Shown here: positions 18,872 through 36,585 of the stretch, piece by piece
How positions within the stretch are numbered: position 1 is the first letter of the stretch
How the letters are laid out: each line of letters starts with the position of its first letter
Assembly (NCBI GenBank): GCA_017552965.1
Contig: JAFZNQ010000018.1
Span: 1 to 37,688, forward strand
From: Abditibacteriota bacterium
Lineage (GTDB): Bacteria > Armatimonadota > UBA5829
Direction of reading: 5' to 3'
Length of the DNA stretch: 37,688 nt
Position numbers and translations under genes: made by a program
Notes under the pieces: generated by a model
What the model saw: only the letters and a program-made list of their open reading frames with translations
Told to the model about the DNA's origin: nothing
Database searches by the model: none

Positions 18872-18887
18872 TCGATATGAATTACGT

Positions 18888-18922
18888 GTGCCTCGGACTG
18901 CTGTTTCGGGGCACATCTTTTT
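18888..18922 (+). terminator. terminator-like hairpin between gapA and pgk
   Basis: An 8-bp stem (18888-18895 with 18907-18914, one G-U pair) is followed by ATCTTTTT. It lies within the gapA-pgk gap, so it may lower read-through into pgk or mark the 3' end of a gapA-only message. Confidence 0.6.
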
Positions 18923-18938
18923 AATAAAGGGGATATCA

Positions 18939-20147: not shown

Positions 20148-20156
20148 GGAACGATT

Positions 20157-20172
20157 GCAGGCAGGCAGGCAG
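20157..20172 (+). repeat. (GCAG)4 tetranucleotide repeat
   Basis: Four tandem GCAG units just after pgk, forming part of the 5' arm of the following hairpin. Confidence 0.8.
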
Positions 20173-20191
20173 GCCGAGGCCTGCCTGCTTT
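20165..20191 (+). terminator. GC-rich hairpin after pgk, abutting rsmG
   Basis: A stem of about ten base pairs (GCAGGCAGGC with GCCTGCCTGC) and a tiny loop, followed only by TTT. It probably terminates pgk transcripts weakly, and it ends ten bases before the rsmG start codon. Confidence 0.6.
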
Positions 20192-20197
20192 GGTATT

Positions 20198-20914: not shown

Positions 20915-20917
20915 GCC

Positions 20918-21436: not shown

Positions 21437-21437
21437 T
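21429..21437 (+). promoter_or_regulatory. extended -10 promoter for the nitroreductase gene
   Basis: TGCTATAAT fits TGnTATAAT and overlaps the stop codon of the GNAT gene. No clear -35. It would give a leader of about 60 bases. Confidence 0.55.
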
Positions 21438-21504
21438 AGCATTGGAACAGGGCGGAGAATATGCTCTCTCCGGCCCCGACTTTTTTATCAAGGAGATCGT
21501 GAAC

Positions 21505-22032
21505 ATGAACGAAATCATCAAAGCCATGACCGAGCGGAGAAGCATCCGCAAATTCAAGAGCCGGATGCCCTCCAGGGACCTTATCGCCCAGGTGATAGAC
21601 GCGGGCCTTTACGCCGCCAGCGGCAACGGCAAGCAGGCTGCCGTGATAGTGGCAGTGACCCAAAAGGACCTGAGAGACCGGCTCTCCGCCGACAACTGCA
21701 AGGTGGGCGGCTGGCAGGAAGGCTTTGACCCCTTTTACGGCGCTCCGGTCATCCTCATCGTTCTGGCAGATAAAAACCGGCCCACCGGCATATATGACGG
21801 AAGCCTTGTGATGGGCAATCTGATGCTGGCGGCCCATTCCCTGGGACTGGGAAGCATCTGGATACACCGGGCCAAGGAAGAATTTGAGCAGCCTGAATGG
21901 AAGCAGTTCCTGAAGGATCTGGGCCTGGAGGGCGAATGGGAAGGCATCGGACACTGCGCCCTGGGCTATATGGACGGTGAATTGCCCAAGCCTCCCAAGC
22001 GGAATGACGGCAGAGTATTTTGGGCAGAATAA
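21505..22032 (+). CDS. nitroreductase-family FMN flavoprotein
   Basis: A 175-residue small nitroreductase. MTERRSIRKFKSR (R11, R12, R15) is the FMN-phosphate-binding start, AASGNGKQAA the loop that follows, then LVMGNLMLAAHSLGLGSIWIHRA, the conserved helix-strand block, and IGHCALGYMDGE near the end. Members reduce nitro groups, quinones or other acceptors with NAD(P)H; the physiological substrate is unknown. The ATG at 21505 is chosen because AAGGAGATC precedes it and the family begins there; the frame extends to 21442. It has its own extended -10 promoter and ends at a strong terminator, so it is probably monocistronic. Confidence 0.9.
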   Translation: MNEIIKAMTERRSIRKFKSRMPSRDLIAQVIDAGLYAASGNGKQAAVIVAVTQKDLRDRLSADNCKVGGWQEGFDPFYGAPVILIVLADKNRPTGIYDGSLVMGNLMLAAHSLGLGSIWIHRAKEEFEQPEWKQFLKDLGLEGEWEGIGHCALGYMDGELPKPPKRNDGRVFWAE

Positions 22033-22042
22033 TCATTGAGGG

Positions 22043-22069
22043 ACGGGCCATGGGGCCCGCCCGTTTTTT
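22043..22069 (+). terminator. intrinsic terminator after the nitroreductase gene
   Basis: ACGGGC (22043-22048) pairs with GCCCGT (22059-22064) with further GC pairing inside, followed by T6. The next gene's start codon lies directly after the T run. Confidence 0.85.
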
Positions 22070-22072
22070 GTG

Positions 22073-24331
22073 ATGAAGAAGACACTGATCCTGCTGCTCC
22101 TGACAGCGCTGGCTGTCCCCGCTTTTTGTCAATATACGCCCGGGCTTTCCGACGGCGGCCGGAAGGATAGGGTGGAGCTCACCCAAGGCTTTTGGCGTGA
22201 CAGGCAGCTGCTCACGAGAGACGTGACCCTGCCCCACCAGTACAGGATGCTGGAACAGACCGGCAGGCTGGAAGCCATTGGCGGCCGGTGGCGCGGCAGG
22301 ACCGAGCTCTCTCCCGAGGAAAAGGCCGCCGCCAAGCGAGAAGGCGCTCCTCACTATTTCTGGGATTCCGACACCGCCAAATGGCTGGAGGCCGCCGCCC
22401 TGGTCCTGGAGAGCTGCCCCTCGGCCGACATCGGGGATATGGCAGAGGACGTGACGGGGCGGATAAAGCGGCTGCAGCAGCCGGACGGATATATCAACAG
22501 CTACTTTACCCTGGTAGAGCCGGAAAACAGACTGAAATATCTCTACAAGAGCCACGAGCTCTATTGCGCCGGGCATCTGATAGAGGCAGGGGTGGCGATG
22601 TATGAGGCCACCGGCGACAGAGGTTTGCTGGACTGTGTGGCGCGTTATGCAGATATGCTGACACGGACCTTCGGTCCCGGGGAGGGCAAGTCACGGAGTT
22701 ATGACGGGCATGAAGAGATAGAGCTGGCTCTGCTGCGACTGTATGGCGTGACCGGCAGGGAGGATTATCTCCGTCTGTGCCGTCACTTCATCGATACCCG
22801 GGGACTGCTGCCTCATCCCTGGGATGCGGAAACGGGGGAGGTCCACACCAAGTATCCTGCAGAGTCTTACGTCTTCGGACAGGCCCATATGCCCGTCGCA
22901 AAACAGCGGACCGCAGAGGGACACGCGGTGAGAGCCATGTATCTCTACGCCGCCATGACCCGGCTGGCCGTCGCGACGGGGGACAAGGGGATGCTCCGCC
23001 GGTCCGCGGCGCTCTGGAAGGACGTGACCGGGGGCAAGCAATATATCACCGGAGGAGTAGGCTCCGACAGCAGCACCGAGGGCTTTGGTCCCGCCTATTA
23101 TCTGCCCAACCGGCAGGCCTACTGCGAAAGCTGTGCTTCGGTGGCCTTTGTTCTGTGGACTCAGGCCCTTCTGGAGGCCGACCCGAGAGCCGAATACGCC
23201 GACAGGATAGAGACAGTCCTCTACAATGCCTTTGCCGCCTCCATATCCCTGGACGGCAAACGCTTTTTCTATACCAACCCTCTGGAAAGCACCGGCTGGA
23301 CCCACAGGTCCGAATGGCTGGGGTGCGCCTGCTGCCCGCCCAATATAGCCCGCCTGACCGCATCGGTCCACAAGTATATATTCACCCGGGATAGAGACAG
23401 CATATACGTAGGCCAGTATATTCCCTGCAGGGCCCATATAGGCGGTACCGATCTGGAGCTGCAGACGGAGTATCCCTTTGACGGCAGGGTGCGGCTCACC
23501 GCCATGGGCGGCTCGTCCCGGCTGTGCCTGCGGATCCCGGGCTGGGCGGAGGGCAAGGCGTCCGTCACGATCAACGGCTACCTGCTGCCTGTCAAAAAGG
23601 ACTCCCGGGGCTGGCTGACGGTGCCGTCGCGCCTGTGGAACGGCGACGTGATAGAGCTGGAGCTGGGCATGGAGCCGGTGCTGCGGCATGCCAACAAGAG
23701 GGTGGCGGCCGACAAAGGCAAGGCTGCCGTCACCGTGGGACCTCTGGTCTATTGCGCAGAGAGCGCAGACAACGGCTCCCTGCAGTATCTGTGTCTGGCA
23801 GACGGCGCTCCGACCCTCAGGGACGACAGGGCGGTCCTGATCCCCTGCAGGAGAACGGATACAGGCCGGGAGGACACTCTCGTGATGGTGCCCTATTACA
23901 CCTGGGACAACAGAGAGCCCGGCGAAATGAAGGTGTGGCTGTATGAGGGGCAGCCCCGATATGAGACCCTGAGCAAAAAGACGCCGACCCTGGAGTTTGA
24001 CCAGCTGAAACTGGAGGGAGCCTGGATGCTGTTTGCCGACTGGATCACCAGTCTGACGCCCGGCAGCAGCGCGGAATTTGAGTTTGACGGCCCGGCCTTT
24101 GAGGTGTTTTGCTACGGGCACAGGGATACGGGCGTGCTGGAGGTGACCATAGACGGAGCGCCGGCGGGAGAGCTGGACGAATACAGCCCGGAGGAGCATA
24201 CCCCCATATCCCGGGTGTTCAGAGCGCCGTCAAAGGGCAGACACAGGGCCAGACTGACCGTCACGGACAGGCGCAACGAGGCCTCCGCAGGCAATTACGT
24301 CAATCTGTGGAAGGTGTGTCTGGCGGAATAA
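22073..24331 (+). CDS. secreted GH127 beta-L-arabinofuranosidase
   Basis: A 752-residue exported glycosidase. MKKTLILLLLTALAVPAFC is a signal peptide; an in-frame GTG one codon earlier is an alternative start. The (alpha/alpha)6 domain carries the zinc-cysteine site of the Bifidobacterium enzyme HypBA1: E336, E352 and C354 (in YCESC) and the pair C420-C421 in GCACCPPN, where C420 corresponds to the cysteine nucleophile. GH127 enzymes release beta-linked L-arabinofuranose. Residues beyond about 640 form an extra beta-rich domain (FDGPAFEVFCYGHRDTG onward), probably carbohydrate binding, making the protein longer than HypBA1. The start is three bases after a terminator T tract and no ribosome-binding site is visible, so its translation or promoter is unusual. 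No terminator specific to it is clear. Confidence 0.9.
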   Translation: MKKTLILLLLTALAVPAFCQYTPGLSDGGRKDRVELTQGFWRDRQLLTRDVTLPHQYRMLEQTGRLEAIGGRWRGRTELSPEEKAAAKREGAPHYFWDSDTAKWLEAAALVLESCPSADIGDMAEDVTGRIKRLQQPDGYINSYFTLVEPENRLKYLYKSHELYCAGHLIEAGVAMYEATGDRGLLDCVARYADMLTRTFGPGEGKSRSYDGHEEIELALLRLYGVTGREDYLRLCRHFIDTRGLLPHPWDAETGEVHTKYPAESYVFGQAHMPVAKQRTAEGHAVRAMYLYAAMTRLAVATGDKGMLRRSAALWKDVTGGKQYITGGVGSDSSTEGFGPAYYLPNRQAYCESCASVAFVLWTQALLEADPRAEYADRIETVLYNAFAASISLDGKRFFYTNPLESTGWTHRSEWLGCACCPPNIARLTASVHKYIFTRDRDSIYVGQYIPCRAHIGGTDLELQTEYPFDGRVRLTAMGGSSRLCLRIPGWAEGKASVTINGYLLPVKKDSRGWLTVPSRLWNGDVIELELGMEPVLRHANKRVAADKGKAAVTVGPLVYCAESADNGSLQYLCLADGAPTLRDDRAVLIPCRRTDTGREDTLVMVPYYTWDNREPGEMKVWLYEGQPRYETLSKKTPTLEFDQLKLEGAWMLFADWITSLTPGSSAEFEFDGPAFEVFCYGHRDTGVLEVTIDGAPAGELDEYSPEEHTPISRVFRAPSKGRHRARLTVTDRRNEASAGNYVNLWKVCLAE

Positions 24332-24436
24332 AGAAGAATCTCTTGTCAAACCGGGCGCTGATACTATTCGACAACCAGAGCAGTTAGCAGATGCCGGAGA
24401 TGCCGGGATGACGCCGGTCTGCGGCTGCTTCGAAAT

Positions 24437-24465
24437 GAAAAGGCCGGAAGGGTGTCCTTCCGGCC
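24437..24465 (-). terminator. intrinsic terminator for the apgM operon
   Basis: A perfect 10-bp stem GGCCGGAAGG / CCTTCCGGCC (24442-24451 with 24456-24465). On the minus strand it is followed by TTTT, just after the apgM stop. It may also stop plus-strand read-through from the GH127 gene. The rest of 24332-24481 shows no gene. Confidence 0.75.
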
Positions 24466-24481
24466 GTATTTCTGCGCTGCA

Positions 24482-25714
24482 TCAGGCGCCGAATTTTTCC
24501 TGCACGTTCATGAGGTTGGTCATGATGTTCATGATATCGCTGCCCTTGATGCGGCCCAGTCCGCCCAGAGCGCAGGCCCGCTCGGTGTATTCCGTGACGT
24601 GGTCGGTCCGGACGTCGGGTCCCCACATGGCGATGGCCACGGGATCGCCGGAGTGGTCCATCAGGTTGCAGGGGGTGGAATGGTCGGCCGTAAAGGTGAT
24701 ATAGGTGTTCTCGGGAGCGTGGTCCATGAGATACTTGATCATCTCGTCTATCTTGGCCAGCATATCGATCTTGCACTGAGGCTTGCCGTCATGGCCTGCC
24801 ACGTCGGCGCCCTTGACGTTGCAGAGCACAAAGTCGTGCTTGTCCAGGGCCTTGATGATGTTCTTGGCCATGGCGATACAGTCGGTGTCATAGCCGCCGG
24901 TGGCTTCGGGGGTGTGATATATGGTCATACCCACGTATTTGGCTACGCCGTCAATGAGGCCGGTCTCGGATACGCAGGCGCCCTTGATGCCGTATTTTTC
25001 GGCAAAGGGAGCCATGTTGGGGCCGACTCCTCCGCCTCTGGGCAATATGATGTTTGCCGGGTGCAGACCCTGTCTGATGCGCTCTGCGTTGACGGGGTGG
25101 TCCTTCAGGAGCTCATAGGAGCGCCTGACGAATTCGTTGACCGCGTATGCTGTCCGGGCGGACGCCTGGTCGGCGGGGTCCTTGGCGCGGGCGGTGAGCA
25201 CAGCCGCGTTTTCGTGATGGGGATCCGTGTCGGTGATGTCGGCTCCCAGGTTGGCGCCGCGGATGATGAGAGCGCCTCTGTGGGCCACAGACTCCTTGAA
25301 GAGTATCTGCATGTCGTCTATCATCATGCCGTTTACCGCTTCCGCCAGCTGCCCGGTGCCTTCGGTGATCCTGCCGGCGCGCCGGTCCGTGATGATCATA
25401 TTGTCATCTACGGTGGAGAAGTTGCAGCGGAACGCCACGTCTCCCTGCTTTACGTCCATGCCTATGCCTGCCGCCTCAAAGGGGCCTCTGCCGGTGTAAT
25501 ACACGTAGGGGTCGTAGCCCAACAGGGAAATATGGGCGGTGTCCGAGCCGGCTCTGATGCCGGTGCCTATGGTGTCCAGCTGCCCGCAAACTGATTCGCA
25601 GGCAAATCGGTCGATATTGGGTATATCGGCAGCCTCCAGAGGAGTTTTGCCGCCCAGCTCCGCAAGGGGCCTGTCGCCCAGACCGTCTGCTACAAGAAGA
25701 ATGCCTTTTGCCAT
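24482..25714 (-). CDS. apgM: cofactor-independent phosphoglycerate mutase, archaeal type (ApgM)
   Basis: A 410-residue alkaline-phosphatase-fold mutase that interconverts 3- and 2-phosphoglycerate in glycolysis. The metal-binding D10 lies in VADGLGDRP, the predicted phospho-serine is S57 in GIRAGSDTAHISLLGYDP, and NVKGADVAGHDGK and FTADHSTPC supply the remaining metal ligands. The sequence is the aPGAM type rather than the longer GpmI type. The ATG is supported by GCAGGAGACACATC. It is the last gene of a minus-strand run starting at the PIN/TRAM gene; a 51-base gap to the SGNH gene contains TATAAT on the minus strand (25735-25730), which could be an extra promoter but would leave a very short leader. 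A strong hairpin terminator follows. Confidence 0.93.
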   Translation of the reverse strand: MAKGILLVADGLGDRPLAELGGKTPLEAADIPNIDRFACESVCGQLDTIGTGIRAGSDTAHISLLGYDPYVYYTGRGPFEAAGIGMDVKQGDVAFRCNFSTVDDNMIITDRRAGRITEGTGQLAEAVNGMMIDDMQILFKESVAHRGALIIRGANLGADITDTDPHHENAAVLTARAKDPADQASARTAYAVNEFVRRSYELLKDHPVNAERIRQGLHPANIILPRGGGVGPNMAPFAEKYGIKGACVSETGLIDGVAKYVGMTIYHTPEATGGYDTDCIAMAKNIIKALDKHDFVLCNVKGADVAGHDGKPQCKIDMLAKIDEMIKYLMDHAPENTYITFTADHSTPCNLMDHSGDPVAIAMWGPDVRTDHVTEYTERACALGGLGRIKGSDIMNIMTNLMNVQEKFGA

Positions 25715-25765
25715 GATGTGTCTCCTGCTATTATATTAAAATTCGTTTTTTTCGGTGTGAGTCCC

Positions 25766-26335
25766 TTACAGCGTTGCCGCAGTCCGGGCAATGATGCCGG
25801 CCACCAGGTCCGAACAGACGTCGATACCCTTGTCGGTCAGGTGTATCAGGTCGTCGGCGCGGATGCAGCCCTCCAGGTCGGCATACACGGGGGTCCACAG
25901 ATCGTTTATCGCCACTCCGATCTCTTCCATGGCTGCCACTGCGCTCCTGTTGAACTCCATGATCCTTTCGTTGGTATTGTGTTCCTGACCCGGTCTAATG
26001 GGGGTGGTGGTGGCAAAGATCACCTTTTTTGCAATGCGCTGCAGCTCTTTCGCGGTGCGGACGAGCTGGGCGGTGTATTCGTCGATGGCGGAAAAGGGAC
26101 CGTCGCCCGCCAGATCGCAGGTGTCCCACAGCCCGCAGTTGAAATGAACGACGTCGCTGCCGCAGATGAAGTCCCGCCAGTCATAAAACACGCCTCTCTG
26201 GGTGTATTTGACGAACCGGCAGTTGTCCTCGGGCTGCCATACGCTGTAGCCCTCTCCCAGCTTCTTCACTGTCAGCTCTCCATAGTTCATGCGTATGGAA
26301 TCGCCCAGCAATACTACTTTGATCTCTCTTGACAT
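25766..26335 (-). CDS. SGNH/GDSL-type hydrolase, cytoplasmic
   Basis: A 189-residue SGNH-fold hydrolase. Block I is VVLLGDSIRMNYG with catalytic S13, block II and III include FNCGLWDTC and FATTTPIRPG, and the terminal block is DDLIHLTDKG with D162 and H165 as the predicted acid and base. Members are esterases or lipases, often removing acetyl groups from sugars. No signal peptide is present, so it acts in the cytoplasm, unlike the three GQSN esterases of this window. It follows ispDF by four bases and precedes apgM, so it is embedded in the operon. Substrate unknown. Confidence 0.85.
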   Translation of the reverse strand: MSREIKVVLLGDSIRMNYGELTVKKLGEGYSVWQPEDNCRFVKYTQRGVFYDWRDFICGSDVVHFNCGLWDTCDLAGDGPFSAIDEYTAQLVRTAKELQRIAKKVIFATTTPIRPGQEHNTNERIMEFNRSAVAAMEEIGVAINDLWTPVYADLEGCIRADDLIHLTDKGIDVCSDLVAGIIARTAATL

Positions 26336-26339
26336 GATC

Positions 26340-27509
26340 CTATCCTGTTTTTTCTATCATACATACGGCGTGAGCGCTGATGCCTTCCTTTCTGCCTTCA
26401 AAGCCCATGTGTTCTGTGGTAGTGGCCTTGACGCTGACCCGGTCCGGGTCTGTGTCCAGGGCGGAGGCGATATTTGCCCTCATCCGGGGGATAAAGGGAG
26501 CCAGCCTCGGCTTTTGCGCTATGATCACCGCGTCTATGTTGATGATGCCGCATCCGTTTTCGCGGAGCAGGCCTGCCACCCGTTTCAAAAGGAGCAGGCT
26601 GCTGATATCCTTGTAAGCGTTGTCCGACGGGGGAAAATGCATGCCTATGTCCCCCAGAGCCGCCGCTCCCAGCAGAGCGTCCATGACGGCGTGGACCAGC
26701 ACGTCCGCGTCCGAATGGCCTATGAGCCCAAAGGGGGCGCCGCAATCCACGCCGCCCAGTATGAGCGCTCTTTCTCCCGGGACTGCGGACAGCCTGTGAG
26801 CGTCGATGCCTATGCCTGTCCTCAGAGTCTTGCCCTCATTCATGATCTGCCTCAATACCGCTATGTCCTTGGGTGTGGTGACCTTTATATTGTCATAGGA
26901 GCCCGTGATGATCCCGGTCTTTTCTCCGGCCCATTCCGCCACGGAGGCGTCGTCGGTGAACGCCAGTCCGGCTGCCGCTGCCTTTTTGTGGGCCTCTCTG
27001 ATGACCTCTGTCCGAAAGCCCTGAGGGGTCTGGGCGGCGTAGAGCCGGCTCCTGTCGGGAGTGTCCTCCACGGTCATATCCCGAGCCGCCGTCTTTATGG
27101 TGTCAGTGACGGGCACGCATACCAGCACGGCAGAAAAACGGTCCAGGGCTTCTATGCACTCCGTGATGATCTCCGGCTTCAGGGCGGGCCTGGCCGCGTC
27201 GTGTATCAGCACAAGGTCTTCGGTGACCAGCTCCAGAGCGTGGCGCACCGATGACTGCCTGTCGCTGCCGCCCCTGGCGAACCTGACGGGCTTTGTCAGC
27301 CCAAAGGACTCCACCAGAGCGGACATGCTGTCAAAGGCATCGGGATGCAGCGCCAGCACTATCTCCCCTATGGCGTCGTGGCCGTCAAACACTCTGAGAG
27401 TGTGCTCCAGAATGGTCCTGCCGGCCACCTGCTCCAGCAGCTTGTTGCGGGTGGCGGAAAAGCGGCTGCTAATGCCTGCCGCGGGTATTAGGGCTGCTGC
27501 CTTTGTCAT
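26340..27509 (-). CDS. ispDF: bifunctional IspD-IspF (MEP isoprenoid pathway)
   Basis: A 389-residue fusion of two enzymes of the methylerythritol phosphate pathway. Residues 1 to about 225 are IspD, the MEP cytidylyltransferase: ALIPAAGISSRF, LIHDAARP and AAQTPQGF are its motifs. Residues about 230-389 are IspF, the cyclodiphosphate synthase, with zinc ligands D236, H238 and H273, and KATTTEHMGF. The intermediate enzyme IspE is not here, as is usual for such fusions. The ATG at 27509 is used; a TTG at 27518 could extend it. The first 41 bases overlap the end of the upstream PIN/TRAM gene, so translation is probably coupled. Length and motifs look intact. Confidence 0.95.
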   Translation of the reverse strand: MTKAAALIPAAGISSRFSATRNKLLEQVAGRTILEHTLRVFDGHDAIGEIVLALHPDAFDSMSALVESFGLTKPVRFARGGSDRQSSVRHALELVTEDLVLIHDAARPALKPEIITECIEALDRFSAVLVCVPVTDTIKTAARDMTVEDTPDRSRLYAAQTPQGFRTEVIREAHKKAAAAGLAFTDDASVAEWAGEKTGIITGSYDNIKVTTPKDIAVLRQIMNEGKTLRTGIGIDAHRLSAVPGERALILGGVDCGAPFGLIGHSDADVLVHAVMDALLGAAALGDIGMHFPPSDNAYKDISSLLLLKRVAGLLRENGCGIINIDAVIIAQKPRLAPFIPRMRANIASALDTDPDRVSVKATTTEHMGFEGRKEGISAHAVCMIEKTG

Positions 27510-28545
27510 GGTTGTCAAAAACCTTTGCGAATATGATCTTGCCCTGAGAAGTCTGGTGGAGGCTGGTGATCTCGATCTTGATCACCTTGCCTATATACTG
27601 AGAGCCGTTTTCCACCACTATCATGGTCCCGTCATCCATATACGCCAGACCCTGCAGCTTTTCCTTGCCGGGCTTCATAATGGCCACGCTGAGGGTCTCT
27701 CCGGGCATGACCACCGGCTTGAGAGCGATGGCCAGCTCGTTGATGTTCAGGGTCTTCACGTTCTGGAGACCGGCCACCTTGTTGAGATTGTAGTCGTTGG
27801 TGATGATGGTGGCTCCCGCGTCCAGGGCGCAGGTGACCAGCTTCGAATCTATCTCCAGACGCATGTTGTCCAGAGGAGTCTCCCGGACCGTCAGATTGAA
27901 CTCCTTTTGCAGGGCGTTCAGTATCTCCAGGCCCCTTCTGCCCCGGGCCCGCTTCAGAGGGTCGCCGGAATCGGAGATGGTCTGCAGCTCGATGAGTATG
28001 AACTTCGGGACCACTATCTGTCCCTCTATAAAGCCGGTGCGGAACAGATCGGCGATGCGCCCGTCAATGATGACGTTGGTGTCCAAAAACTTGATGTTGG
28101 GCTTTTCGTTGATCTCGGTCCTGTTGCCGGGGAAAAAGCTGGCCCATTGCTCCATGGCGCTCTTGAGAGCGTAGGTGCTGATGCTCATGAGGATCAGGGT
28201 GATAAGCGCGTTGACATAAAAAGGCAGGCGCACGTCTCCCATGGCAAACCTGAAGGCGCTGGCCAGTATGATGCCCAGCATAAAGCCCAGCAGATAGATC
28301 ACCTTGTCGACGCTGGACACCCGGCGGCTGCGGCTTTGGAGCGTAAATACGCAGCGCTCTGCGATGAAGCCCAGGAAGGCGCCTACTATGGCCAGCAGGA
28401 TCTTCATATACAGCTGTTGCGGCTCGGTCCAGTTGTAGCCGGCGGTGGCCAGAAAATAAGACCTGGAAAAACGTAAGCTCAGCACTATGCCTATGACTAC
28501 CAGTATCGTGGCAGTGATGGGACGCGTATATTTGTTGTTTGTCAT
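27469..28545 (-). CDS. membrane-anchored PIN/TRAM-domain protein (YacL-like)
   Basis: A 358-residue protein. Four membrane segments fill residues about 8-130. A PIN nuclease-like domain follows: IKFLDTNVIIDGRI (D155), ILIELQTI (E186) and TNDYNLNKVA (D251) keep the acidic residues of an active site. A TRAM domain (about 276-345, GETLSVAIMKPGKEKLQGLAYMDDGTMIVVE) is a predicted nucleic-acid-binding barrel. This is the architecture of Bacillus YacL and relatives, whose targets are poorly known; yacL lies beside ispD-ispF in Bacillus too, so the linkage is conserved. AGGGTGATACCGC precedes the ATG. It is the first gene of the operon and has a good promoter at 28578-28607. Confidence 0.92.
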   Translation of the reverse strand: MTNNKYTRPITATILVVIGIVLSLRFSRSYFLATAGYNWTEPQQLYMKILLAIVGAFLGFIAERCVFTLQSRSRRVSSVDKVIYLLGFMLGIILASAFRFAMGDVRLPFYVNALITLILMSISTYALKSAMEQWASFFPGNRTEINEKPNIKFLDTNVIIDGRIADLFRTGFIEGQIVVPKFILIELQTISDSGDPLKRARGRRGLEILNALQKEFNLTVRETPLDNMRLEIDSKLVTCALDAGATIITNDYNLNKVAGLQNVKTLNINELAIALKPVVMPGETLSVAIMKPGKEKLQGLAYMDDGTMIVVENGSQYIGKVIKIEITSLHQTSQGKIIFAKVFDNHDKGSSPNTRGRH

Positions 28546-28577
28546 GCGGTATCACCCTATACTTTCTCGTAATAAAT

Positions 28578-28607
28578 ATTATAACATATCGGGGCGGCTC
28601 TTTTCAA
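28578..28607 (-). promoter_or_regulatory. promoter for the PIN/TRAM-ispDF-SGNH-apgM operon
   Basis: On the minus strand, TTGAAA (28607-28602), an 18-base spacer, and TATAAT (28583-28578) with an extended -10 TGT. Confidence 0.75.
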
Positions 28608-28640
28608 TCGCTGAGGCCGCGGATATGCTCTCCCGGAGCC

Positions 28641-29660
28641 CTAAGGATATTGCAAAAAGCCAAAGCGCACGCCTCTCACGGGACTGGCGGTAAGGGCAGG
28701 GGTGTCGATGATGATCTGTCTCTTGTCAAAATCTATGTTTTTGATGATGCCGGCAGACACGAATCTGCATTCGCTGTCCTCCAGCCCTGCGTACAGGTTT
28801 TCGAAAAAGCCCGGGTCCTGGAGCCGGACCCTGCTCACCTTCAGTATGGAGGCGATCTCCTTTTCCTGCTGCTCCGAGCAGGTCCCTCCGGCCAGCAGAT
28901 AGGCCGTTTTGCCCAGCTGCTCGCCGTGATACACGGGAGAAGAGAGTATCTGGGAAATAGCCTTTTTGTATTGCCACTTCAGCTCCCGGCCGCAGCCCAG
29001 CCAGGTGTTGGTAAAGGTGACCTGGGAAAAGGGGATGGTGTGTATTTGGGAGCCCTCGAGAAACCTCTGCATATCGGCTCTGAAGTTGGCTCTGGCTATG
29101 GAGGGGACGTAGGAGGAGGCCCCGTCGGCCTGTCTGACCGCGCAGATGATGTCCGTCCTTTTGATAAAGGGGGTGATGATGAACTCGGCCTCGTGGCTCC
29201 GCTGAAGAGCTATGACGTAGTCGGGAGCAGTCATCTCTATCTCGTTTTGCTTGGCAAGGACCACGCCGGGATAATCCATCCATCCGCAGGAGTCTATGAC
29301 TATGAGTCCGGCGCCCTGTCTTTTGGCCTCGGCTACCACCGAGATGATGCCGAAGATATAGCCGGCGACGTGGCCTGCGGGGATCACGTCTCCCACGAAC
29401 AGGCAGTGATCGGGCCTCTGCCGGTCCATGTCCTCCGGCTGTCTGACCACCACCATGGACACGGCGCCGGGAGGGCCGACTATGCCCCTGGCCAGCTCGG
29501 CGTCCACGAAGGCCGGAGTGATGCCTCTCTCCTCAGCGGCTTCCACCAGTCTGCGGCAGAGCCGGGTCTTGCCCACGCCTCTGGCGCCCTGAACGCTGAC
29601 GGTGCCCCCTGTGGAAAGTATCAGTCGGACTGCCTCGTCATAATCCCCAAGCAGGCTCAT
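28641..29660 (-). CDS. Clp1/Grc3-like P-loop polynucleotide kinase
   Basis: A 339-residue P-loop protein. The Walker A motif is GARGVGKT (G25 to T32). VGPPGAVSMVVV, then HCLFVGDVIPAGHV, and LIVIDSCGWMDYPGVVLAKQNEIE correspond to the switch-like and clasp segments of the CLP1_P domain. Eukaryotic Clp1 and Grc3/Nol9 phosphorylate 5'-hydroxyl ends of RNA during tRNA or rRNA processing; archaeal and scattered bacterial homologues act on RNA or DNA ends. The C-terminal third (about 240-339) is beta-rich and could be a nucleic-acid or regulatory module. Its ATG overlaps the stop of the phosphoesterase gene by one base (TAATG), so the two are translationally coupled. RNA-end repair or processing is an inference from the family. 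Confidence 0.75.
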   Translation of the reverse strand: MSLLGDYDEAVRLILSTGGTVSVQGARGVGKTRLCRRLVEAAEERGITPAFVDAELARGIVGPPGAVSMVVVRQPEDMDRQRPDHCLFVGDVIPAGHVAGYIFGIISVVAEAKRQGAGLIVIDSCGWMDYPGVVLAKQNEIEMTAPDYVIALQRSHEAEFIITPFIKRTDIICAVRQADGASSYVPSIARANFRADMQRFLEGSQIHTIPFSQVTFTNTWLGCGRELKWQYKKAISQILSSPVYHGEQLGKTAYLLAGGTCSEQQEKEIASILKVSRVRLQDPGFFENLYAGLEDSECRFVSAGIIKNIDFDKRQIIIDTPALTASPVRGVRFGFLQYP

Positions 29661-30217
29661 TACAGCTCGTCTTCAAAGAATACCCGGCCCGTCCGGATGT
29701 CAAACACGGATATATGCCCGTTGTCTATCAGGCCTGCGGTAGGGACGGGGTCGGCGGCGGGATATCTGGGTATGCCTATGGACCCCGGGTTGATGAGGGT
29801 GACGCCGTCTCTCTTTTCCAGCACCGGCACGTGGGTGTGGCCGGAGACGAATACGTCGGCGTCGCAGTCTTTGGCAAGGCTGACCATGGCTGCCGTGTTG
29901 AGACGGGTGCCGTGGTTGACCACGATCTTGCAGGGATGAACGCCCAGGACGGTGGTCTCCCTCTCGGCGTAGCCGGGCATCAGCTCGGTATATACCTCGC
30001 TGTCACAGTTGCCTCTGACGGATACGAAGGGGACCCGGAGCCCGTTGATCAGCTCCACGCATTTTATCACGTCATAGCCCTCGTAGCCGTACAGCCTGGG
30101 AGGGTGATAGAGTATGTCGCCCGCGTGGATGATACAGTCTGCGTCCCCGAACAGCTCGAAGACCCGCCCGAGAGCCTCGCAGCACCCGTGTGAATCGCTG
30201 ATGATACCGATTTTCAT
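29660..30217 (-). CDS. YfcE/MJ0936-like metallophosphoesterase
   Basis: A 185-residue calcineurin-like phosphoesterase. All metal motifs are present: D8-S9-H10 in GIISDSHG, IIHAGDIL, VRGNCD, VVNHGTR and VSGHTHVP. Members hydrolyse phosphodiester or phosphomonoester bonds with two bound metals; E. coli YfcE acts on artificial phosphodiesters and its natural substrate is unknown. I chose the ATG at 30217 because GAGGTG lies six bases upstream; the GTG of that very motif could be misread as a start. The ribosome-binding site directly follows a T9 run after a tRNA gene. Coupled by a one-base overlap to the Clp1-like kinase, it may share an RNA-end-processing role, which is inference. Confidence 0.9.
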   Translation of the reverse strand: MKIGIISDSHGCCEALGRVFELFGDADCIIHAGDILYHPPRLYGYEGYDVIKCVELINGLRVPFVSVRGNCDSEVYTELMPGYAERETTVLGVHPCKIVVNHGTRLNTAAMVSLAKDCDADVFVSGHTHVPVLEKRDGVTLINPGSIGIPRYPAADPVPTAGLIDNGHISVFDIRTGRVFFEDEL

Positions 30218-30238
30218 AATGTCCACCTCAAAAAAAAA

Positions 30239-30310
30239 GCCGATGAGGAGACTCGAACTCCTGACCTAAGCTTTACGAAAGCCTTGCTCTACCAGCTGAG
30301 CTACATCGGC
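30239..30310 (-). tRNA. tRNA-Thr (anticodon CGU)
   Basis: A complete 72-base cloverleaf on the minus strand. The acceptor arms GCCGATG and CATCGGC pair fully; the D arm is GCTC-AGCTGGTA-GAGC; the anticodon arm AGGCT-TTCGTAA-AGCTT has one G-U pair and anticodon CGU, reading ACG; the T arm is AGGAG-TTCGAGT-CTCCT. CCA is not encoded; a T9 run follows (30238-30230). Its promoter is at 30321-30349. Confidence 0.95.
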
Positions 30311-30320
30311 ATACAACATA

Positions 30321-30349
30321 ATAATACCCGAAATGCCGGCTTTTGTCAA
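30321..30349 (-). promoter_or_regulatory. promoter for tRNA-Thr
   Basis: On the minus strand, TTGACA (30349-30344), a 17-base spacer, and TATTAT (30326-30321). Transcription would start only a few bases before the mature tRNA 5' end. Confidence 0.8.
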
Positions 30350-30378
30350 GAACGGCCCCTGTTTTCCCGGCTCCGATA

Positions 30379-30387
30379 TGCTATAAT
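30379..30387 (+). promoter_or_regulatory. extended -10 promoter for the GH36-like gene
   Basis: TGCTATAAT, with no clear -35, about 50 bases before the start codon. It is divergent from the tRNA promoter. Confidence 0.6.
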
Positions 30388-30437
30388 AAAAGATGTTTTG
30401 CTGACAAGAGCATATCTACGATCGGGGGAAGCAGACT

Positions 30438-33014
30438 ATGACAAGACTTGTGTGGACGGCGCTGCTGCTGCTGGCAGTGGCTGCGGAAGCGTTGGCCGGC
30501 GCGGCCGGGGATTTTGCCCGGGCTGCCTTTTCCGGCGCGGGAGGCTATGAGCCGGAGACCGGCGTCTTTGAGGTGGTCAGGGAGTTTCAGGAGGGCAACA
30601 CCACCAGGATCAATACCTACGTGGACGACCGGGGCCTCCCCATCAGCCTGGGGGGCAGGAGCTATGACAGCGGCTTCGGGGTCCATGCGGACAGCCTGCT
30701 GCGCTTCAGGCTGCCGGAGGGCTGCGTGTCCTTCAGGGCTGCCGGCGGCATAGACGATCACGTCAACCCGGTGGGCGGCTCCTGCTCAGGCTCGGTCCTG
30801 GGGGACGGCAGGCTCCTCATGGCTTCTCCCGTGCTGCGGGGCGACGCGGTGTATGAGTATTATGTCCCCCTGAAGGGGGTGTCGGTGCTGGAGCTGTCGG
30901 TGGACAACGGCGGGGACGGCTACACCTGCGACCACTGGAGCTGGGGGGACCCGAGAGTGGAGACGGAGGACGGCAGAGTGATATATCTGTCCGACATGGC
31001 TCTGCAGCCCCGCCTGTCCCTGGACTATCCCTTTTCCTTCACCTACGGCGGCAAGCCCTCCGGCAGTCTGCTGCCGGGGTGGGACATGAAGGTCACCGTC
31101 GGGGAGACAGGACAAAATGAGTCTCTGAGGACATACGTCTGGCACGATCCCGACACCGGGCTGGAGGTCAGGGCGGAGGTGAAGATATACGCCGACACCA
31201 ACGCTCTGGACTACACCGTGTATTTTACCAACAAAGGCGAGGCCGATACCCCGGTCCTGTCCGATATATGCGGCGCGGATATGCGGGTAAAGACGGCGCG
31301 CCGGGCCCCCGTGGGGACCTCGGACGTGCCCTTTGGCCTGATATACGACGCCGAGCCGGAGACTGCTCTCCAAAACGACGTGCTGCTGGTGATGACTCAG
31401 GGCACCATCGGCTGTGTCAGATATTGCATAGATGACTTCAGGCTCCGCCCTCAATATCTGCGGGAGGGCAGTCCCGTGAAGGTGGAGCACAGGGGGCTGA
31501 CCCCCTGCGGCGGCGACTACGCTCCCTACTGGACCCTGAAATGGCCCGGGGGCGGAGTGTCCTGCGGCCTGGGCTGGACCGGCAGCTGGCAGGCGGAGTT
31601 TGACCGCAGGGACGACGTCCTGTCCATGAAGGCGGGCAGATGCGGAGTGAACACGTATCTGAAGCCCGGAGAGACTGTCCGGAGCCCCAGGATGGTGCTG
31701 GCCTTTTTTGACGGCGCCGACCTGCAGGAGGGCATGAACGGATTCCGCATGACCATGATCAGGCACGTATCTCCCAAGAACTCAAAGGGCGAGCCGGAGA
31801 TGCTGCCTCTGGCCTGCACCCTGTCCGGCAGGGAGGGCAACTCTTCCACCGAAGCCATAGACCGGGCCTATATCAGGTCCCTGGCGGGCCTGGGCTTTGA
31901 GACCGTGTGGTTTGACGCCTGGTATCAGCAGGACGGCTTTCCTGCCTGCATGGGCAATCTGCACTATCCTGTGGCGGACACGGCGGACAAGACGAGATAT
32001 CCACACAGCCTGAAGCCTCTTACCCGGCTGGCCCGGGCCTACGGCAAGACCAATCTGGTGTGGTTTGGCCCGGAGACCGTGAACGCCGGGACCTACATCG
32101 CCCGGGAGCATCCGGAATACGTCATGTGGAACTCCGCGGGGACCGCCGGCAGCTACGCCCTGTCGGACCCGGAAGCCAGAGGATATCTGGAGGACCTGCT
32201 GGGCGCCCTGATACGGGAGTGGGATATCACCTATTTCCGCACGGATTCCTCCACGGATCCGGCCTGTCTGGACCTGTATCTGAAGGAGAACGCCCCGGAC
32301 AGGCAGGGGATCAGCGAAGACGTGTTCGTCCGGTCCCTCTACACCTTCTGGGACGACCTGCGCCGGCAGAATCCGGGGCTGGTCATAGACAACTGCGCCG
32401 GAGGCGGGACGCGTCTGGATCCGGAGCTCATGAGCCGCAGCATCAACATGGCCCGCAGCGACTCCAGCGTGTGGGTCCTCTTTGACGACAAGGCCTCCGC
32501 TATGCTCAATCAGCAGATCACCTCCAATCTCAACTTTTATATCCCCTGGTCTCTGTGCGCCACCCTGGGCAGGACTCCCTATTCCATGAGGAGCTGCTTC
32601 AACACGGGCCTGGCCTTCATCGGCGACACGAGAGAGGGTTCCCCGGACGCCTATGACAAAAAGGAGCTCCAAAAGGGCCTGGCCGAGTGCCTGAGGCTCC
32701 GCAAATATCATACGGGCAGGTTTTACAGCCTGTTTTCTCAGGACAACACCGACGCCTCCTGGTGCAGCTGGCAGTATCACAGGCCGGAGACGGGAGACGG
32801 GTATTTCGTGGTGTTCAGGAGAGAAGGCTCTCCCTTCGGCAGCCTGGAGATCCGGCCCCGGTGCCTGAAGCCAGACGCCGACTACAGAGCGGACATATAC
32901 GAGAGCTACGACCTCTCGGAGACCCGGGTCCTGAAGGGCAGCGAGCTGGAGCGCTTTTTGGCCGTCATCGACCGGCGGCCGGGCAGTATTTTGGTGGAAT
33001 ACTCGCCCCTGTAG
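30438..33014 (+). CDS. secreted GH36-like alpha-galactosidase with an N-terminal NPCBM domain
   Basis: An 858-residue exported enzyme. MTRLVWTALLLLAVAAEALA is the signal peptide. Residues about 25-190 are an NPCBM-type carbohydrate-binding domain (YDSGFGVHADSLLRFRL, then FRAAGGIDD). A beta-sandwich precedes the catalytic barrel, typical of GH36: FETVWFDAWYQQDGF, TNLVWFGPETVNAGT, then YFRTDSS with predicted nucleophile D603, DNCAGGGTRLDPELMSRS, and MARSDSS with predicted acid/base D675. A small C-terminal beta domain ends the protein. GH36 enzymes release alpha-galactose; the family also has N-acetylgalactosaminidases. The usual Lys two residues before the nucleophile is Arg here (R-T-D), so specificity may differ. 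It has its own extended -10 promoter and no partner genes. Confidence 0.88.
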   Translation: MTRLVWTALLLLAVAAEALAGAAGDFARAAFSGAGGYEPETGVFEVVREFQEGNTTRINTYVDDRGLPISLGGRSYDSGFGVHADSLLRFRLPEGCVSFRAAGGIDDHVNPVGGSCSGSVLGDGRLLMASPVLRGDAVYEYYVPLKGVSVLELSVDNGGDGYTCDHWSWGDPRVETEDGRVIYLSDMALQPRLSLDYPFSFTYGGKPSGSLLPGWDMKVTVGETGQNESLRTYVWHDPDTGLEVRAEVKIYADTNALDYTVYFTNKGEADTPVLSDICGADMRVKTARRAPVGTSDVPFGLIYDAEPETALQNDVLLVMTQGTIGCVRYCIDDFRLRPQYLREGSPVKVEHRGLTPCGGDYAPYWTLKWPGGGVSCGLGWTGSWQAEFDRRDDVLSMKAGRCGVNTYLKPGETVRSPRMVLAFFDGADLQEGMNGFRMTMIRHVSPKNSKGEPEMLPLACTLSGREGNSSTEAIDRAYIRSLAGLGFETVWFDAWYQQDGFPACMGNLHYPVADTADKTRYPHSLKPLTRLARAYGKTNLVWFGPETVNAGTYIAREHPEYVMWNSAGTAGSYALSDPEARGYLEDLLGALIREWDITYFRTDSSTDPACLDLYLKENAPDRQGISEDVFVRSLYTFWDDLRRQNPGLVIDNCAGGGTRLDPELMSRSINMARSDSSVWVLFDDKASAMLNQQITSNLNFYIPWSLCATLGRTPYSMRSCFNTGLAFIGDTREGSPDAYDKKELQKGLAECLRLRKYHTGRFYSLFSQDNTDASWCSWQYHRPETGDGYFVVFRREGSPFGSLEIRPRCLKPDADYRADIYESYDLSETRVLKGSELERFLAVIDRRPGSILVEYSPL

Positions 33015-33036
33015 GTTTATATTCACCGCGTTTTTG

Positions 33037-33045
33037 TGGTATAAT
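33037..33045 (+). promoter_or_regulatory. extended -10 promoter for the mla operon
   Basis: TGGTATAAT followed by a second overlapping TATAAT-like box; no clear -35. It lies 27 bases before the mlaE start. Confidence 0.6.
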
Positions 33046-33071: not shown

Positions 33072-33881
33072 ATGAGAATAGGAAAGCGAATCAAGACAGC
33101 GACCAAGGCTCCGGTCCGCTTTGGGGGCTCCGTCAGAAGGTTTTTTGAGCTGCTGGGCGAGAGCTTCATCATCATATGGCAGGTGCTCGGCTACGTGGTC
33201 CGCGGCAGGGTGAACCTGCGGGACGCCGTGAACCAGATGTGCTTTATGGGCGTGGAGAGCCTGGTCATCATCCTCATCACCGTGGCCTTTTCGTCGGCGG
33301 TCATCGCCCTGTATCTGGCGCAGATCATCACGGGCTGGGGCTTCGGGTCCTACACGGGCTCTGTCATAGGCCTGGCCATTACCAGAGAGATCGCCCCGGT
33401 GCTGTGCGGAGTGGTGCTGTCGGCAAGGGTGGCCAGCTCCATCGGAGCCGAGATAGGCAGCATGGTGGTCACTGAGCAGATAGACGCCCTGAAGACCCTG
33501 TCGGTGGATCCCATCGAATATCTGGTGGTCCCCAAGGTGGTGGCCGCCGTGATCATGCTTCCCTTGGTGGGGATACTGGCGGATGCCGTGGGCATAGGCT
33601 CCGGATATCTGGTGGCCTGCGCCAACGGAGTCAGCGGAGGCGGCTTTATGGCGGCCTGCCAGTCCTTTACCCATATGTCCGATCTGATCAACGGCCTGAT
33701 CAAATGCGTGGTGTTCGGCCTGGCCGTGGCAGTCATAGGCTCCCAGCAGGGGCTCCGCACCAGAGGCGGCGCCGTGGGAGTAGGCGAGGCTACCACCAAC
33801 TCGGTGGTGATCAGCATAGTGGTGGTGTATATCACCAATTTTCTCATGACCTACGTGATGTTCGGAGGCAAGGGGATATGA
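33072..33881 (+). CDS. mlaE: MlaE-family lipid ABC transporter permease
   Basis: A 269-residue integral membrane protein of the MlaE/YrbE family, the permease of MCE lipid transporters that move phospholipids between inner and outer membranes. An amphipathic N-terminal helix (about 20-45, RRFFELLGESFIIIWQVLGY) is followed by five or so membrane segments. The conserved block GLAITREIAPVLCGVVLSARVASSIGAEIGSM, quoted here in pieces, contains the EIxP coupling helix that contacts the ATPase, and TEQIDALKTLSVDP follows. The stop overlaps the mlaF ATG (ATGA), so they are translationally coupled. First gene of an mlaEFD operon with an extended -10 promoter; the best GAG is seven bases before the start codon. 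Confidence 0.95.
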   Translation: MRIGKRIKTATKAPVRFGGSVRRFFELLGESFIIIWQVLGYVVRGRVNLRDAVNQMCFMGVESLVIILITVAFSSAVIALYLAQIITGWGFGSYTGSVIGLAITREIAPVLCGVVLSARVASSIGAEIGSMVVTEQIDALKTLSVDPIEYLVVPKVVAAVIMLPLVGILADAVGIGSGYLVACANGVSGGGFMAACQSFTHMSDLINGLIKCVVFGLAVAVIGSQQGLRTRGGAVGVGEATTNSVVISIVVVYITNFLMTYVMFGGKGI

Positions 33882-34624
33882 TAGAGCTCAGAGACGTCCA
33901 CCTTTCCTTTGGCGACAAGCACGTGCTGAAGGGGGTATCCTTCGGTATAGATTCGGGGAAGACCCTGGCCATCATAGGCACCTCCGGCGCAGGCAAATCC
34001 ACCGTGCTCAAATGCATCTGCGGGCTGGTGAGGCCCCAGTCGGGCAGCATACTCATAGACGGCCTGGACGTGATGACGGCCGACGACAAGACCCTGAAAA
34101 GCATCCGCGCCAAGCTGGGCATGGTGTTTCAGTATTCCGCCCTGTTTGACTATCTCACCGTGTATGACAACGTGGCCTTCGGGCTGAGAAAGCACACCTC
34201 TCTCACCGAAGCGGAGATCAGGGACAAGGTGGCAGAGGCCCTTAGCATGGTGAATCTGTCCCACACCATGGAGATGATGCCCAGCGAGCTGTCGGGAGGC
34301 ATGAAAAAGAGAGTGGCTCTCGCCAGGAGCCTGGTGCTGGAGCCGGCCTTTTTGCTCTACGACGAGCCCACCTCGGGCCTGGACCCCATTACCACAGCAG
34401 CCACCAACAAGCTGATCAATATGGGCCGGGACCTGGGCAAGACCAGTCTGGTGGTGACTCACGACATACCCACCATCAACTCGGTGGCTGACAAGATAGT
34501 CTTCATTCACTCCGGGACCGTGATATACGAAGGCTTGTATGACGATATGATAAACAGCGACAATCCCTACGTGGTCCAGTTTATGAACGGACGGACCCAG
34601 GGACCCATCGCAACTATAGGATGA
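33878..34624 (+). CDS. mlaF: MlaF-family lipid ABC transporter ATPase
   Basis: A 248-residue ABC ATPase. Walker A is GTSGAGKST, the Q-loop lies in MVFQYSALFDYLTVYDNV, the signature is LSGGMKKRVALARSL, Walker B is FLLYDEPTSGLDP, and the switch histidine is in VVTHDI. The FQYSALFDYLTV context is the one typical of MlaF/Ttg2A proteins. It powers lipid movement through MlaE and the MCE protein. The start is the ATG within ATGA overlapping the mlaE stop, preceded by AAGGGG; the frame is open further upstream inside mlaE but without support. mlaD begins four bases after its stop. Confidence 0.95.
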   Translation: MIELRDVHLSFGDKHVLKGVSFGIDSGKTLAIIGTSGAGKSTVLKCICGLVRPQSGSILIDGLDVMTADDKTLKSIRAKLGMVFQYSALFDYLTVYDNVAFGLRKHTSLTEAEIRDKVAEALSMVNLSHTMEMMPSELSGGMKKRVALARSLVLEPAFLLYDEPTSGLDPITTAATNKLINMGRDLGKTSLVVTHDIPTINSVADKIVFIHSGTVIYEGLYDDMINSDNPYVVQFMNGRTQGPIATIG

Positions 34625-34628
34625 GAGT

Positions 34629-36050
34629 ATGACAAAGGAAATCAAGGTCGGTCTTCTGGTGGCGGCAAGCATACTCGTGTTTTGCCTGCTGTATGCCTTT
34701 CTCGACGAGATAAAGGTGCGGACCAACACGTATGAGATATGCACCTATTTTGACACGGTGGAAAAGATAGACAAGGGCGCCCAGGTGCGCTTGTCCGGCT
34801 TCAAGGTGGGAGCCGTGACCGGCATCGAGCTCACGGAGAACCTCAAGGCCAAGATCACCATGAAGATAGACCGCAAGATCAATATACCTGTGGACTCGGA
34901 CTGCCTGGCCACCTCGGGAGCCATCATAGGCGAGATCTTCATCAAGATCAACCCCGGCACTTCCACCAAGTATCTGGCCGACGGCGACACCATCAAGGCC
35001 AGCACCAAGGTGAACTTTGACGAGGTCACGGACAACGTGAACAACCTGCTGAAGGTCACCGAGGAGTCCATGAGCAAGGTGAACGAGATCCTGTCCCACA
35101 AGGGGGCCATCATCAACTCTCTGGAAAACATCAACGTCATCACCAAGCGGGTGGACGAGCTGACGGAGCAGGTCAACGAGATAGTCAAGGCCTCCAGAAT
35201 GGACATATCGGGCACTATCAGCAATATCAACGCGGCTTCGGCCAGCGCTTCCAGAATAGCGGACAACATCGACCGCTTCGTGTCCTCCGACGCTCTGCCC
35301 GAGGTCAAGGGCGCCCTTGCCGACGCCGGCGACTCCATGAAGATCCTGAAGGATACGGTGGCCAACGTGCAGGTGATAGTGGCCACGGTAGGCGACCAGG
35401 CGGGCAGCCTGAAGAACATCATGGACAAGGCCGATTCCATCCTGGCCAAGATAGACTATACCACCATCCAGGCGCAGCAGCTCATAGGCAACCTGAACGA
35501 AGCCTCCGAGTCTGTGAAGGACGTGGCCACGGATGAAGAGCTGAAAAGGAATATCAGCGAGACTGCGGAGAATATCAGAGAGACCACCCAGCAGGCCAAG
35601 GAGCTGGTGACCGCCCTCAACAAGCGTTTCGGCGGCATCGCCTCCGGCGAGAAGATAGAGGCCAAGCCTCAGGCAGACGCCTATTACAATCCCGACAAGG
35701 ACACCTTTACCCTGGACGCCTACGTGGACGTCATGAAGGGGAAAAACGGAGGCCGCATAGGCTTGTATGACCTGGGCGAGAGCAACAAGTTCACCCTGAT
35801 GTACAACCGCAGGCTGTCCGACAGCTCCCTGCTGCGGGGCGGGCTCTTCCGCAGCAAGCTGGGGATAGGCTATGACTATACCTCGGGCAAGGCTGGCCTG
35901 TCCGCAGACCTGTATCGGCCCAACGATCCCTATCTGTTCGTGAGAGGCAAGTATAGGCTGAACAAAAATCTGTCTCTGATGGTGGGAGCGGAGGACCTGC
36001 TGCACAAGGAAAACAGAAAGCCGGTCTTCGGACTGTCGCTGAGCTACTGA
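34629..36050 (+). CDS. mlaD: MlaD-type MCE protein with coiled-coil and C-terminal beta-barrel-like region
   Basis: A 473-residue MCE protein, far longer than E. coli MlaD (about 180). Residues 7-24 are an inner-membrane anchor. One MCE domain occupies about 36-120 (VRLSGFKVGAVTGIEL, then ATSGAIIGEIFIKINPG). A long helical, coiled-coil-like stretch rich in Ala, Asn and Glu runs from about 120 to 345. The last 115 residues (FTLDAYVDVMKG to the end) alternate hydrophobic and polar residues as in outer-membrane strands, and the protein ends GLSLSY with a terminal aromatic. This is the architecture described for Veillonella parvula MlaD, where it spans the envelope without separate MlaA or MlaC. 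Third gene of mlaEFD; a terminator follows 11 bases after the stop. Confidence 0.9.
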   Translation: MTKEIKVGLLVAASILVFCLLYAFLDEIKVRTNTYEICTYFDTVEKIDKGAQVRLSGFKVGAVTGIELTENLKAKITMKIDRKINIPVDSDCLATSGAIIGEIFIKINPGTSTKYLADGDTIKASTKVNFDEVTDNVNNLLKVTEESMSKVNEILSHKGAIINSLENINVITKRVDELTEQVNEIVKASRMDISGTISNINAASASASRIADNIDRFVSSDALPEVKGALADAGDSMKILKDTVANVQVIVATVGDQAGSLKNIMDKADSILAKIDYTTIQAQQLIGNLNEASESVKDVATDEELKRNISETAENIRETTQQAKELVTALNKRFGGIASGEKIEAKPQADAYYNPDKDTFTLDAYVDVMKGKNGGRIGLYDLGESNKFTLMYNRRLSDSSLLRGGLFRSKLGIGYDYTSGKAGLSADLYRPNDPYLFVRGKYRLNKNLSLMVGAEDLLHKENRKPVFGLSLSY

Positions 36051-36060
36051 CCCGCAGAAA

Positions 36061-36097
36061 AAAGCCCCTGCGAGCAAGTCGCCGGGGGCTTTGTTTG
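36061..36097 (+). terminator. intrinsic terminator after mlaD
   Basis: AAAGCCCC (36061-36068) pairs with GGGGCTTT (36085-36092), with an inner GCGA/TCGC stem, followed by TTTGTTT. It separates the mla operon from rplI. Confidence 0.85.
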
Positions 36098-36100
36098 CAG

Positions 36101-36132: not shown

Positions 36133-36585
36133 ATGAAAGTTTTGCTGTTGAAGGACGTGAAGAATCTGGGCTCTGCCAACGAAGTGGCAGAGGTGTCGGA
36201 GGGATACGCCAGGAATATGCTCATCCCTCAGAAGCTGGCCGTGCCCGCCACTCCCGCCATACTGGCAGACGTGAAAAAGAGGCACGATGCCGCCGAGGCC
36301 AGAGAAGCCAAAGCCAGAGCCGAGGCAGTGGCCCTGAAGGAAAAGCTGGGGACAAAGCGTATAGTGGTCAAGGCAAAGGCCGGCAGCGAGGGCAAGCTCT
36401 ACGGAGCAGTGACCGCCGCCGAGGTGGCCGAGGCCATAGACAAGGCCTTTGACGTGGAGCTGGACAGGAAAAAGGTCTCTCTCAACGAGAGCGTGAAGCA
36501 TCTGGGCATACACACGGCCCACATCAGGCTCCATGCCGGCGTGTCCGCGGATATATCCTTTGAAGTGGTGGCGGAGGAAGAATAG
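36133..36585 (+). CDS. rplI: 50S ribosomal protein bL9
   Basis: A 150-residue bL9. MKVLLLKDVKNLGSANEVAEV, quoted at its family limit, is the rRNA-binding N-terminal domain, followed by GYARNMLIPQKLAVPAT. The long connecting helix (about 45-75, KKRHDAAEAREAKARAEAV) and the C-terminal domain with GKLYGAVTAAEVAEAI are as in other bL9 proteins. Length is normal. The ATG at 36133 has AAGGACGG upstream. The stop codon TAG overlaps the GTG start of dnaB by one base, a compact form of the common rplI-dnaB arrangement. The usual upstream partners rpsF, ssb and rpsR are absent; the mla operon lies there instead. Confidence 0.96.
   Translation: MKVLLLKDVKNLGSANEVAEVSEGYARNMLIPQKLAVPATPAILADVKKRHDAAEAREAKARAEAVALKEKLGTKRIVVKAKAGSEGKLYGAVTAAEVAEAIDKAFDVELDRKKVSLNESVKHLGIHTAHIRLHAGVSADISFEVVAEEE

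Follow-up and report, generated by a model that had tools for sequence, protein, structure and literature searches.

The passage of phospholipids through the periplasm in the absence of a shuttle protein is an open question, for which an MlaD protein that carries its own β-barrel is the proposed ancestral solution. This question is raised by an mlaE-mlaF-mlaD locus of an Abditibacteriota bacterium (assembly GCA_017552965.1, contig JAFZNQ010000018.1, positions 1 to 37,688 of the forward strand). The complete stretch of 37,688 nucleotides that was analyzed is referred to here as the window, and the genome from which it derives comprises 2.78 Mb in 138 contigs and is 97% complete. The locus probably encodes a minimal, shuttle-free MlaEFD transporter in which six copies of MlaD would form a tunnel, with each C-terminal tail folded into its own ten-stranded outer membrane barrel that serves as an anchor rather than as a pore.

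The genome holds exactly one MlaD and one MlaE. Searches of it for MlaA (PF04333) and MlaC (PF05494) gave zero matches, and the Escherichia coli and Caulobacter controls were positive. An earlier sequence-only reading of the window had described a minimal mlaEFD operon with no mlaA, mlaB, or mlaC adjacent to it, had likened it to the one-protein bridge of Veillonella parvula, and had named separate mlaA and mlaC genes in the genome as a possible refutation. The operon was confirmed, with its products matching the MlaE, MlaF, and MlaD domains and its genes either overlapping or lying 4 bases apart. Its flanking genes are a glycoside hydrolase upstream and rplI downstream. Given the long MlaD and the genome devoid of matches to MlaA and MlaC, the assignment to the V. 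parvula type of system held as well. mlaB is not in the operon; a genome-wide search for MlaB was not made. The genome additionally encodes one TamB-like protein and one Omp85-family (BamA-like) protein, the gene for which is located ∼3 kb from that for LpxC, a protein of lipid A synthesis, on the same contig (G000:C101:56279-60885). On the basis of these three proteins, the host is very likely a lipopolysaccharide-making diderm with the capacity to insert barrels. There is no match to the LptD model PF04453 in the genome, a result that is uninformative since the model also misses the Bacteroides and Synechococcus controls. The proximity of the LpxC and Omp85-family genes recalls the outer membrane gene cluster of diderm Terrabacteria.

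The overall architecture of MlaD, which is 473 residues in length, consists of an inner membrane anchor, one MCE domain (a single match to PF02470), a predicted extended helix of ∼215 residues, and a C-terminal β domain. The sequence-only reading was correct as to the length, the anchor, and the single MCE domain, and had estimated the helix at ∼225 residues. It also recognized the β region, but the start at residue 358 and the length of ∼115 residues that it gave are replaced here by a start near residue 344 and a length of ∼130 residues, which accommodate approximately ten strands. Solved MlaD and Mce chains match the N-terminal part of the protein. One of these, a Mce/MlaD-domain protein of 312 residues (PDB 13hr_I), matches residues 11-251. 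The distance from residue 124 to residue 361, which spans the gap between the MCE domain and the barrel, is 237 residues; in the MlaD proteins of the phylum this spacing ranges from 194 to 564 residues with a median of 242, and it might follow the width of the periplasm. With both of its halves straight, the helix of the window protein would measure ∼30 nm.

Tail alignments of 146 relatives were employed for the analysis of conservation and of 210 for that of coevolution. In the former, residues 344-473 show few gaps. G378, G405, and G468 are invariant, and R361, D363, D381, Q391, R403, G412, G414, D416, D427, and G453 are strongly conserved. Approximately ten strands were placed by eye, and on each of them alternate residues split into a hydrophobic face and a polar face. 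The invariant glycines and the separation of the faces place the β domain well outside what chance would give: the contrast between the faces is 2.04 kcal/mol on an outer membrane scale (after Moon and Fleming 2011) versus 0.84 ± 0.19 kcal/mol in within-strand shuffles, with none of the 5000 shuffles as high. Of the 36 positions that face outward in the window protein, 31 hold a hydrophobic residue and one a charged or polar residue. The inward face, in contrast, displays conserved polar residues at D350, R361, D363, K/R387, Q391, R403, D416, D427, D437, R439, and D/E455, together with the three invariant glycines. Still present on this face in the window protein are D350, D363, R376, K387, R403, D416, D427, R439, and E455. 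With ten amphipathic strands and an inner face rich in charges and glycines, each tail is better explained as a small barrel complete in itself than as part of a barrel held in common, and the MlaD tail is a probable outer membrane barrel.

The order of the strands was addressed with a symmetric pseudolikelihood model of coevolution built on the 210 sequences (effective number ∼178). High couplings at residues 337, 371, and 465 are caused by gap-rich columns, and the analysis omits columns 369-372 as well as all columns ahead of residue 344. Antiparallel coupling is stronger between neighboring strands than between non-neighbors (means of 2.9 and 1.5, p = 2e-4), a result to be read with caution given that in the parallel control the neighbors are also somewhat raised (2.4 versus 1.7). 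The best listed registers have residue sums of 711, 739, and 767, and then 819, 841, 866, 894, and 920. Their step of ∼25 fits an up-and-down meander, a strand order that the coevolution data thus support. An eight-stranded barrel, suggested in a first run with 146 sequences by a contact between strands 1 and 8, is given no weight here; with 210 sequences this pair ranks fifth of 45, below four neighboring pairs.

Several observations weigh against a separate barrel for each subunit. The alignment on which the strand limits were judged by eye is also the one that was used for the tests. The window protein and that of its closest relative have swapped three of the conserved inward polar residues, namely R361T, Q391M, and D437F (window positions 35709-35711, 35799-35801, and 35937-35939), and their core is therefore less polar and charged than is the norm for the phylum. 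A search of PDB sequences with the tail revealed no structure covering the domain. The best AlphaFold2 model of the tail, calculated from a two-sequence input, contains eight meander strands at a predicted local distance difference test (pLDDT) score of only 47, and that of a relative's tail alone scored 37; both were of such low confidence that they were not used. Finally, the coupling between strands 1 and 10, the pair that would close the barrel, ranks 17 of 45, and the closure contact was undetected.

The low confidence of the AlphaFold2 models would also be in keeping with a β tail that is soluble at the tip of the tunnel and docks onto another outer membrane protein, and so would the C-termini of the relatives. 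The aromatic end noted by the sequence-only reading is true of the window protein, but it is a local trait rather than a general one: only 23 of 148 relatives terminate in F, Y, or W, and R or K is found at most ends, such that the classical β-signal is weak. A soluble tail is nonetheless quite improbable, since the two-residue repeat of hydrophobic outward positions on ten strands would be unstable in water. Furthermore, the barrel domain of V. parvula MlaD fractionated with the outer membrane (PMC10665443), and the sole membrane protein matched in the PDB by the tail profile, albeit weakly (E 0.02), is the ferric enterobactin receptor, an outer membrane protein whose last strands are those aligned.

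The missing contact between strands 1 and 10 bears on another arrangement, namely a composite barrel in which the strands of two, three, or six subunits join into a wider, lipid-conducting structure, as in TolC or, on a smaller scale, mycobacterial Mce1. Such a barrel would also relieve a problem recognized in V. parvula, where the ten-stranded barrel was judged by the authors to be too narrow for a phospholipid and where fusion into a trimeric barrel, as well as small six-stranded barrels, were suggested (PMC10665443). Ten strands, however, amount to a full small barrel, and those of six subunits together would give a ring of 60 strands, much wider than the tunnel of helices. In Mce1-type sharing each subunit contributes one strand, whereas approximately ten were found here per subunit. 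Invariant glycines and opposite charges on nearly every strand suit tight packing and not a wide pore, and the published V. parvula model has a separate barrel for each subunit, although its authors found a ring of six barrels unlikely (PMC10665443). A composite barrel of any kind accordingly carries a low probability, and it is highly improbable that the six tails, instead of closing singly, exchange strands with their neighbors to give one wider barrel, or a few, through which phospholipid would pass the outer membrane. The sequence-only reading had proposed that the six subunits share one barrel on the grounds that a single tail looked short. Neither idea gained support: the inner face of each tail carries opposite charges and invariant glycines, and its approximately ten strands, the number published for V. 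parvula (PMC10665443), are enough for a small barrel.

With one barrel per subunit, and with homologous systems as the guide to the hexamer, the tunnel, and insertion into the outer membrane, the transporter would probably operate as follows. MlaE and MlaF would constitute an ATP-binding cassette (ABC) motor in the inner membrane, upon which six MlaD subunits would place an MCE ring, with the long helices supplying a tunnel that spans the periplasm. Each MlaD would fold its final 130 residues into a separate outer membrane barrel of ten strands. The long MlaD very probably bridges the envelope. A charged, glycine-rich core would block lipid, and from this feature we infer that the barrels are most likely anchors holding the mouth of the tunnel against the outer membrane rather than lipid pores. 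The entry point for lipid should then be the periplasmic mouth of the tunnel, next to the barrels or between them, from which the lipid would be drawn to the inner membrane.

The direction and the cargo in this scheme follow the analogy with V. parvula, in which the behavior of mla mutants resembles a loss of retrograde phospholipid transport and is suppressed by mutations in tamB (PMC10665443). In the window genome, too, a single MlaEFD is accompanied by a TamB-like protein and by lipid A synthesis. It is thus unlikely that the system exports lipid toward the outer membrane or that it carries something other than phospholipid, even though a sequence cannot reveal direction or substrate and mycobacterial MCE systems are known to carry sterols and fatty acids (PMC9882608).

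For V. parvula, the three-gene system, the four-part MlaD, and the ten-stranded barrel have all been published (Grasekamp et al. 2023, PMC10665443). The system described here resembles it in having three genes, no MlaA or MlaC, a TamB protein, and an MlaD composed of an anchor, one MCE domain, a long helix, and a ten-stranded β region, a likeness of gene content and architecture. It differs in belonging to another phylum, in the length of MlaD (473 versus 419 residues, mainly on account of the helix, ∼215 versus ∼150 residues), in the position of mlaD beside rplI, and in the conserved charged barrel core demonstrated here. The architecture, the missing MlaA and MlaC, the problem of a barrel too narrow for lipid, and the idea of a shared barrel are thus already in the literature; what is new is the phylum-wide barrel count, the conservation of the core, the evidence from coevolution, and the neighborhood with rplI. 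With the six-component Mla system of E. coli the locus shares the MlaE permease, the MlaF ATPase, and the MCE domain of MlaD. The E. coli MlaD is short (183 residues), however, and works with MlaC, MlaA, and MlaB, whereas here MlaA and MlaC are absent from the genome. An MCE ring and a long helical tunnel across the envelope are also features of mycobacterial Mce1 (PDB 8fed; PMC9882608), but there six different subunits contribute one strand each to a six-stranded barrel (PMC10665443), and here one gene provides approximately ten strands. PqiABC and Brucella Mpc likewise contain MCE proteins that are thought to bridge the envelope. Mpc differs in being a chimera of Mla and Pqi, with helices at the end of its extended MpcD (PMC10897342, PMC12436622).

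The MCE domain was found in 190 of 201 genomes of the phylum and in all 140 of the good ones. The barrel domain, identified with a profile of its own, is present in 272 of 291 genomes and in 190 of the 194 good ones, almost always as a single copy, which extends the barrel-bearing MlaD to almost all genomes of this deep-branching phylum. MlaA was detected in none of the 201 genomes, and MlaC gave no match above the cut-off in the phylum genomes, in agreement with the finding that MlaABC is wholly absent in diderm Terrabacteria (Grasekamp et al. 2023, PMC10665443). The ∼210 natural barrel sequences with a conserved core make the question of pore versus anchor testable. The joint replacement of R by T, Q by M, and D by F at residues 361, 391, and 437 was seen only in the window genome and its closest relative. 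A long MlaD lacking the barrel occurs in family f28 (locus L125:970-2484, minus strand); its tail is rich in Pro, Ala, and Glu, and rplI still lies 3' of the gene. The barrel profile found no match anywhere in two genomes of this family, G038 and G142, which are 98% and 90% complete. Outside of the phylum genomes, a tblastn search of plasmids with the tail and one scan of viral contigs gave no match.

Table 1. Features of the mlaEFD locus in window coordinates.
Feature	Position	Strand	Basis
Promoter-like site (TTTATA, 18 nt, TG-TATAAT)	33016..33045	+	Consensus scan 10/12; 27 bases 5' of mlaE; alone no proof of function
mlaE, ABC permease, 269 aa	33072..33881	+	Pfam PF02405, E 7.1e-65
mlaF, ABC ATPase, 248 aa	33878..34624	+	Pfam ABC_tran, E 2.9e-37; top NCBIfam match MlaF, E 2.1e-61
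Long-form mlaD, 473 aa	34629..36050	+	Pfam PF02470, E 1.6e-13; starts 4 bases past mlaF
MlaD inner membrane anchor, ∼residues 5-27	34641..34709	+	Hydrophobic stretch in translation; alignment with solved MlaD chains from residue 2
MlaD MCE domain, residues 33-110	34725..34958	+	Pfam MlaD domain; similar to PDB 7ch8, E 1.3e-13
MlaD predicted long helix, ∼residues 125-340, proline break near 226	35001..35648	+	Sequence reading; weak coiled-coil model matches
MlaD C-terminal β domain, residues 344-473, ∼ten antiparallel strands	35658..36047	+	Conserved in 146-210 relatives; face contrast; neighbor-strand coevolution
Final strand VFGLSLSY, like the β-signal of the β-barrel assembly machinery (G-x-x-hydrophobic-x-aromatic)	36024..36047	+	G468 invariant; 467, 469, and 471 hydrophobic across relatives
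Terminator-like hairpin 3' of mlaD	36054..36098	+	RNA fold -26.8 kcal/mol, z -4.3 versus shuffles
rplI (ribosomal protein bL9)	36133..36585	+	Pfam Ribosomal_L9_N and L9_C; neighbor, outside transporter

As can be seen in Table 1, mlaE, mlaF, and mlaD look like a single transcription unit, given the promoter-like site, the ATGA overlap of the mlaF start codon with the mlaE stop codon, the 4-base gap before mlaD, and the strong 3' hairpin. Among 19 relatives with enough flanking sequence, 18 carry both mlaE and mlaF upstream of mlaD. Directly 3' of mlaD lies rplI in 102 of the 127 phylum loci with enough flank, a count in which some genomes appear twice, and the two genes often overlap or are separated by 3 bases. 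This phylum-wide pairing of a ribosomal gene with an envelope lipid transporter is unusually stable.

The remainder of the window contains three successive sialic-acid-type acetylesterase (SASA) genes at positions 4321-8253 and, at 13625-33014, enzymes for plant polysaccharides: a tandem pair of glycoside hydrolase (GH) family GH3 genes, a GH127 arabinofuranosidase, and a large NPCBM-melibiase protein. The latter enzymes are consistent with life in the rumen. Among named relatives, the nearest is RGIG10284, an Abditibacteriota metagenome assembly from yak rumen, with an MlaD identity of 87%.
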